This document shows, piece by piece, positions 37,746 through 38,188 of a DNA stretch of 64,000 nt. This stretch comes from an uncultured Clostridia bacterium (GTDB lineage: Bacteria > Bacillota > Clostridia > Christensenellales > Borkfalkiaceae), in contig CALVHS010000021.1 of NCBI GenBank assembly GCA_944328665.1, positions 62,001 to 126,000 on the forward strand, written 5' to 3'. Under the pieces are notes generated by a model, which was given only the letters and a program-made list of their open reading frames with translations, was not told where the DNA came from and did not search any database. Made by a program: the position numbers and the translations under genes. The number at the start of each line of letters is the position of its first letter. The stretch's first letter is position 1.

Positions 37746-37776
37746 AGGAAAGGGCACCGCTCGGGTGCCCTTTCCT
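37746..37776 (-). terminator. Terminator of the tRNA-Thr gene
   Basis: A 13-bp perfect stem (AGGAAAGGGCACC and complement) with a 5-nt loop starts 2 nt after the encoded CCA. The T content is in the 3' arm (CCCTTTCCT). Confidence 0.7.
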
Positions 37777-37777
37777 T

Positions 37778-37853
37778 TGGAGCTACTGGCCGGACTTGAA
37801 CCGGCGACCTGCTGATTACGAATCAGCTGCTCTACCGACTGAGCCACAGTAGC
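37778..37853 (-). tRNA. tRNA-Thr (anticodon CGT)
   Basis: 76 nt with CCA encoded. Minus strand: acceptor GCTACTG paired with CAGTAGC, D-arm GCTC/GAGC, anticodon arm GCTGA-TTCGTAA-TCAGC giving anticodon CGT, T-arm GCCGG-TTCAAGT-CCGGC and discriminator T. All four stems pair without mismatch. Three partial, degenerate copies of its 5' half lie directly upstream. Confidence 0.96.
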
Positions 37854-38060
37854 ACATTTACGATTCAATTTTCCCAGCTCGTCTCTCGCAACGGATCAGC
37901 TGGAGCGACTGAGCCACAGTAGCACATTTACGATTCAATTTTCCCTGCTCGTCTCTCGCAACGAATCAGCCGGAGCGACTGAGCCGCAGCAGCACATCTA
38001 CGATTCAATTTTCCCTGCTTGTCTCTCGCAACGGATCAGCCGGAGCGGCCGAACAACGGA
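37851..38060 (-). repeat. Three tandem 70-bp repeats derived from the 5' half of tRNA-Thr
   Basis: Units 37851-37920, 37921-37990 and 37991-38060 have an exact 70-bp period and differ at few positions, except the far end of the third. In the tRNA direction each holds a remnant such as GGCTCAGTCG...GCTGATTCGTTG, matching the tRNA acceptor/D-arm and anticodon 5' part. The rest (containing GAGAGACGAGC and AAAATTGAATCG) is not tRNA-like. The array fills most of the 335-bp stretch between the tRNA and the lipid-kinase gene and lies inside the probable tRNA leader. Confidence 0.9.
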
Positions 38061-38106
38061 CGGCAATATGAACGATACAAGGAGCAAGCCTCGTTTCAGC
38101 CTGTCT

Positions 38107-38115
38107 ATTATAGCA
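38107..38115 (-). promoter_or_regulatory. Extended -10 promoter upstream of the repeats and tRNA-Thr
   Basis: Minus strand TGCTATAAT. A poor -35 (TTGCTT, 16-bp spacer) lies upstream. A transcript from here would run about 250 nt through the three repeats before the tRNA. Confidence 0.6.
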
Positions 38116-38188
38116 TATTTTGCAGAAAAAGCAAATCTTTTTAGCCGCTTTTTTCCCTTTTTTTTATTTTATCCGTATACAAAAAACG

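Follow-up and report, generated by a model that had tools for sequence, protein, structure and literature searches.

Tandem 5′ tRNA-Thr(CGT) fragments in the leader of the tRNA-Thr(CGT) gene of Candidatus Borkfalkia: possible scars of an integration hotspot

Why should a tRNA gene be preceded, inside its own probable transcript, by partial copies of itself? The question is raised by a 64,000-nucleotide stretch of DNA (the window) from a metagenome-assembled genome of 1.81 Mb, labelled G000, of an uncultured Clostridia bacterium. ARAGORN found a single tRNA in the window, tRNA-Thr(CGT), and three 70-bp units lie between this intact gene and a probable promoter (Table 1). A sequence-only reading had described this layout, which TRF, a repeat search, and ARAGORN all bore out, and had proposed that the units are processing signals, RNA decoys or sponges, or scars left at the tRNA gene by repeated integration or by slippage.

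The array in the tRNA-Thr(CGT) leader

TRF placed the array at 37836-38047 with a period of 70, 3.0 copies, a match of 94%, and 0 indels, and the repeat search agreed, giving three copies at 100, 95, and 88%. The longest exact tRNA word within 300 bp upstream of the gene is 18 nt, far above the maxima of 11 in 2000 shuffles and 10 in 2000 segments of 300 bp drawn at random from the window, which indicated that the resemblance of the array to the tRNA is not due to chance. The probable promoter comprises a −35 element TTGCTT (38134-38129), a 16-nt spacing, and an extended −10 element, TGCTATAAT, with its TATAAT at 38112-38107; judging from these elements, transcription would be expected to start near 38100. 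A strict sigma-70 consensus scan of the window did not list this promoter, and a terminator scan of the window did not list the inverted repeat beyond the tRNA. The same promoter, in the form TTGATT-16-TGGTATAAT-AAGCTG, stands before tRNA-Thr(CGT) throughout the genus. A gene for tRNA-Thr(TGT) is also encoded in G000.

Table 1. Features of the tRNA-Thr(CGT) locus in the window, and occurrences of the T-loop cassette
Feature	Position or loci	Strand	Basis
Intact tRNA-Thr(CGT)	37778..37853	−	ARAGORN; Rfam RF00005, 73.4 bits
Unit 1 (proximal)	37854..37923	−	Repeat finding, unit alignment, folding
Unit 2	37924..37993	−	Repeat finding, unit alignment
Unit 3 (distal, decayed)	37994..38063	−	Repeat finding, sequence reading
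Probable promoter	38107..38134	−	Read from sequence; same promoter genus-wide
Inverted repeat (13 bp, perfect), probably terminates the tRNA transcript	37746..37776	−	Repeat finding
T-loop cassette, own genome	G000:C1:22260-22295; G000:C2:331-357		
T-loop cassette, loci	L161, L162, L104, L105, L106, L164, L178, and others		

The units are 5′-end fragments of the adjacent tRNA gene, upstream of it and on the same strand, and follow the tRNA from position 1 to the anticodon loop (about position 36) before passing into non-tRNA sequence, which spans only about 32 bp from the fragment to the next unit or the tRNA. Unit 1 comprises GCTACTGTGGCTCAGTCG (tRNA positions 1 to 18), CTCC, AGCTGATCCGT (tRNA positions 26 to 36, with one change), TGCGAGAGACGAGC, which holds the TGCGAG motif, and an A-rich spacer that stops just short of the next copy or the tRNA. 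It is predicted to form a hairpin, GGCUC/GAGCU, with an inner CUCCAGC/GUUG.GAG. In unit 2, the tRNA 5′ part GCTGCTGCGGCTCAGTCG is followed by CTCC, GGCTGATTCGT, TGCGAG, and a spacer. Unit 3 has lost its acceptor part and is recognizable only from 38047 down, as CGCTCCGGCTGATCCG, TTGCGAG, and a spacer, so the acceptor 5′ strand that had been read in every unit is present in units 1 and 2 and missing from unit 3. The D-arm remnant that had been read in each unit also needs qualification. The D-stem 3′ strand is absent from the units, and CTCC stands in place of GGTAGAGC of the tRNA, where the gene has GTAGAGC.

Distribution and concerted evolution in the genus

The sample consisted of 40 genomes of Candidatus Borkfalkia and further loci, and the locus was readable in 36 species. 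The array is present in 25 of these, with one to five units (counted from the locus listing, decayed distal units included) and a period of 64 to 71 bp, and units are missing at tRNA-Thr(CGT) in the other 11. Wherever a contig holds both the conserved promoter and the tRNA, the array lies between them; in G018, units without the tRNA lie at a contig end. In a bacterial genome collection, the exact unit core returned only loci of the same kind, and those naming a species belong to Candidatus Borkfalkia, while outside the genus the array-locus search matched the tRNA alone. The search of relatives for the unit and its copy number thus revealed homologous arrays across the genus, with a conserved unit core. 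On an rpoB tree, the presence and absence of units are scattered, with at least seven changes forced by well-supported (starred) branches. The proposals of an RNA decoy or sponge and of a processing signal are at most possible, and 11 of the 36 species have no units.

Between species, identity is 93% in the tRNA-derived columns, 87% in CTCC, 76% in YGCGR, and 42% in the spacer, compared with 30% for shuffled letters. The segment AAAATTGAATCG, which the sequence-only reading had singled out as conserved non-tRNA sequence, is conserved within the array only, since identity between species drops to 42% there. Spacers are homogenized within species, identity between units being 0.81 within a species and 0.42 between species. 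A CRISPR-like arrangement was ruled out because one array repeats the same spacer. The D-loop allele of the units tracks that of the tRNA of the same species (Fisher p 7.5e-9): where the tRNA has GTTG, so do 10 of 10 scored units, and where the tRNA has GTCG, 31 units have GTCG and 1 has GTTG. This indicated recombination among the units and between units and tRNA, which homogenizes them with the gene. The proximal unit usually reads CTCCAG, and distal units more often read CTCCGG and carry further A-to-G and T-to-C changes.

The break point and integration at tRNA genes

Mobile DNA integrates most commonly at tRNA genes. In 39 of the 48 units, identity to the tRNA stops at position 36. In elements integrated at tRNA-Thr(CGT), the displaced 3′ half begins at T32, TTCGTAATCAGC (L061 and L062; distal end of the element in G009 and G005). 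The 5′ units, ending at T36, and the island 3′ halves, starting at T32, share only the TTCGT of the anticodon loop, as expected if a single crossover core gave rise to both. Tyrosine integrase genes end 44 to 137 bp past the tRNA 3′ end in G034, G008, G009, and G005; the two tested against Pfam (G034 and G005) match PF00589 with E values of 9.5e-23 and 1.1e-20, and those of G008 and G009 are homologues. An integrase remnant lies at tRNA-Thr(CGT) in G012. Array-bearing species with islands at the same gene are G034, G008, and G009. No integrase island was found between the 5′ fragment and the tRNA at the tRNA-Thr(CGT) loci (the Islander criterion being more than 2 kb), and because the gap is about 32 bp, an integration origin is proposed by analogy.

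Integration or slippage scars are the best supported of the three original explanations, as the units end at the island crossover of the same gene and several other tRNA genes have fragments, joined to conserved half-sites, next to them (see below). Our preferred reading, to which we give roughly even chances, is that the tRNA-Thr(CGT) gene is an integration hotspot and that the array consists of its displaced 5′ fragments, each with an attachment half-site, multiplied by recombination, probably transcribed in the leader, and mostly tolerated. Each unit contains the TTCGT core and the attB left arm, and the units could conceivably serve at the DNA level as extra 5′ half-sites that absorb integrases and shield the tRNA gene. 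We consider this extremely improbable, as the right arm of the anticodon-stem site (TCAGC) is missing from the units and the three array-bearing species named above still have islands at the gene.

In the Islander data, the anticodon loop is a crossover sublocation, and upstream 5′ tDNA fragments were reported at 159 of 3919 islands (PMC4383910). Like those displaced fragments, the units come from the end of a tRNA gene, have the 5′-type side and orientation, and break in the anticodon loop. Unlike them, they form a 70-bp tandem array, have neither an island nor an integrase separating them from the gene, share a fixed internal change (CTCC), and sit inside the probable tRNA transcript. Dehalococcoides carries tandem ssrA fragments, each preceded by a conserved 15-bp motif, with the junction in the T-loop (PMC3146451). 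The two cases are alike in having many tandem RNA-gene fragments, each next to a conserved short insertion-point motif, but the ssrA repeats are 3′ fragments that bound islands, with serine recombinases and the T-loop involved. Partial tRNA duplication by integration is also a point of likeness with the pieces of tRNA genes that were mistaken for tRNA genes in archaeal genomes (PMC9897764), although those are single fragments and not leader arrays. On these comparisons, the array is probably a variant of known displaced tDNA fragments.

Partial self-copies are also found in the leaders of tRNA-Arg(CCT) and tRNA-Leu(TAA) in G000, and tRNA-Pro(AGG) has one downstream; the remaining tRNA genes of G000 have no self-copy longer than about 13 nt. 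In relatives (L107, L109, L110, and L126), the Arg(CCT) leader runs from a 5′ half (positions 1 to 42) through about 170 bp of element-like sequence to the whole tRNA, and displaced 3′ halves of Arg(CCT) begin at position 32. The leader stretch looks like the remnants of an element that restored the 5′ half. Leu(TAA) leaders of relatives contain 5′ halves cut past the anticodon loop. Two side observations concern these leaders. The stretch of about 170 bp contains repeated GGTATAA motifs, and a near-identical stretch of about 58 bp, adjoining remnants of the tRNA anticodon arm, precedes tRNA-Leu(TAA) genes of differing sequence in four species (L136, L138, L147, and L148).

The leaders of tRNA-Arg(CCT), tRNA-Gly(CCC), and tRNA-Glu(CTC) contain tandem near-complete tRNA copies with a 50- to 60-nt cassette in the T-loop. 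This T-loop cassette has the pattern GTTCG-YGCGAG-P1 hairpin-NGCCGAGG...TCGGCN-GAT (core GCCGAGG...TCGGC), and the exact pattern GTTCG-YGCGAG...GCCGAGG...TCGGC was found at 52 places in 19 of the 40 genomes of the genus. It also occurs in two more genera of Borkfalkiaceae, and sits in partial tRNA copies on either side of many of the family's tRNA genes. Among the 46 listed occurrences, in which overlapping loci cause some places to be counted twice, 30 lie within 400 bp of a tRNA. The cassette has the strand of the tRNA at every locus showing one, and most of those on loci without a tRNA end in a tRNA 3′ end or lie near a contig end. The basal pair of the second hairpin, P2, is T-A in 20 cases, G-C in 8, A-T in 4, C-G in 3, and G-T in 1, a clear covariation, and the cassette matched no Rfam family; it is probably an undescribed structured element. 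In both the cassette and the Thr unit, the TTCG of a tRNA loop is followed, directly or one base on, by YGCGAG, an arrangement that makes a common half-site plausible, though not proven.

These fragments also bear on plain slippage or unequal crossing-over, that is, a chance tandem duplication running from the tRNA interior into the leader, with no recombinase. A head-to-tail array, homogenized within each species and variable in copy number, is what such a process would yield. It leaves unexplained, however, the coincidence of the break with the island crossover core, the similar YGCGAG after TTCG in the T-loop fragments of other tRNAs, and the recurrence of the same kind of fragment in several tRNA leaders, and we consider it quite improbable.

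Several mobile origins were rejected. Cassette ends beside GAAC/CAAG hinted at an IS91-type rolling-circle origin, but no Y2 transposase was found in the 40 genomes, a weak negative because the control genomes were blank too. Transposases of the IS200 (Y1) type are patchy and absent from many species with units or cassettes. As for carriage by phages or plasmids, phage and plasmid collections matched the tRNA alone, and the exact unit and cassette patterns were absent from viral contigs.

Repeats were also observed downstream of tRNA-Thr(CGT) in relatives. Tandem repeats of 139 to 173 bp (L014, L022, L025, L029, L010, and L045) consist, in order, of a terminator, an inverted tRNA 3′ arm, TGCCGAAATAACGTGACGCGAT...GCTGTTCCGTCGC...CTCCTTA, and a direct tRNA 3′ end, CAAGTCCGGCCAGTAGCTCCA; they represent a second cassette type, with ends resembling the reverse complement of the T-loop cassette. 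Another repeat, of about 180 bp (L013, L009, L046, L048, and L032), has GGGGTCCCCAAAAAAAGGCG...CGCATTTTTTTGGGG before GGTCGCCGGTTCAAGTCCGGCCAGTAGCTCCA and is distinct from both cassettes.

Transcription, folding, and meaning of the array

E. coli tyrT has a 178-bp repeat structure, and the RtT RNAs of enterobacterial tRNA operons have been proposed to be trans-acting RNAs. Like the array, these are tandem repeats in a tRNA operon that include part of the neighboring tRNA, but they contain the tRNA 3′ end, lie downstream, and match the array neither in sequence nor by covariance model. Could the units be released from the tRNA transcript as trans-acting small RNAs of this type? Their position inside that transcript, the tRNA 3′ end in the downstream 139- to 173-bp repeats of relatives, and RtT candidates upstream of tRNA genes in Pasteurellaceae (PMC4986893) are consistent with this. 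The repeats in the window are nevertheless 5′ and not 3′ fragments, and Rfam gave no RtT match in the window or related loci, where tRNA was the only known RNA family recovered. Such a role thus appears very improbable.

With the tRNA-derived part held fixed, units had lower folding energy with the spacers of their own species than with dinucleotide-shuffled ones (mean z −1.40 in 23 species; p < 0.05 in 6 of the 23), the combined p of 3.5e-7 being optimistic because the species are related and not independent. The RNAalifold consensus of proximal units had a better energy than column shuffles, with a covariation gain of nil, and folding of the whole leader was not unusually stable (z −0.53). 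The retention of CTCC and YGCGR amid a nearly randomized spacer, and spacer-unit pairing above that of shuffles, suggest constraint and not pure tolerance, and on this modeling an RNA role for the units is possible. In silico, the units vie with the 5′ half of the tRNA for pairing with the 3′ half, and one unit lowers the equilibrium probability of the cloverleaf from ln −0.3 to about ln −6, versus about ln −2.5 for a shuffled unit. Real spacers neither raised nor lowered this probability relative to shuffled ones (p 0.92), so neither protection by the spacers nor a tuned disturbance of the tRNA is supported, and the notion that spacers fold to insulate the tRNA was abandoned.

These tests address whether the array is a functional leader RNA, in which unit hairpins set the yield of tRNA-Thr(CGT) and copy number tunes the effect, for example by competition with the tRNA 5′ half for the 3′ half or by offering sites for a maturation nuclease. 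The placement of units between promoter and tRNA in 25 of 36 species, the conserved CTCC and YGCGR, the complementarity of spacers to the unit, and the effect of one unit on the cloverleaf argue for such a leader. Against it, 11 species do without units, competition is a trivial consequence of copying a 5′ half, real spacers affect the cloverleaf no differently from shuffled ones, and the z value of the whole leader is not unusual; we regard it as possible but doubtful. A broader form seems unlikely, namely a genus-wide class of leaders in which recombination-maintained 5′-half copies, shifting in number by unequal recombination, would compete intramolecularly and thereby tune how a minor isoacceptor tRNA matures, with kindred T-loop cassettes doing likewise elsewhere.

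If the array consists of scars at an integration hotspot, as we prefer, an ancestral site-specific recombination at the anticodon loop, with its crossover in TTCGT, would have left, ahead of a tRNA restored to full length, a tRNA 5′ half, TTCGT, the half-site YGCGAG, and a short spacer. Each unit opens with a stretch of about 18 bp that matches the tRNA exactly, and through it later unequal recombination could add units (up to five), delete them (11 species have none), and keep their tRNA part in step with the gene. Lying between promoter and tRNA, the units are probably transcribed as the 5′ leader of the tRNA, and RNase P would presumably remove them from the precursor. They may persist mainly by tolerance at tRNA-Thr(CGT), a C34 isoacceptor that is probably backed up by the U34 tRNA-Thr(TGT) of the same genome. 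Two features fit the scar reading poorly, the conserved YGCGR and the fixed change to CTCC. The latter speaks against scars in particular, as almost every unit has CTCC in place of GTAGAGC and a displaced original half would not be expected to show this at birth.

Fragments are seldom left 5′ of a tRNA gene, and they are not usually seen to form long-lived arrays within the tRNA's own transcript. Arrays of this kind have lasted across the genus Candidatus Borkfalkia, in concerted evolution with the tRNA. They offer a natural series of 0 to 5 copies, in which it may be asked whether transcribed tRNA halves upstream of a tRNA alter its folding or maturation.
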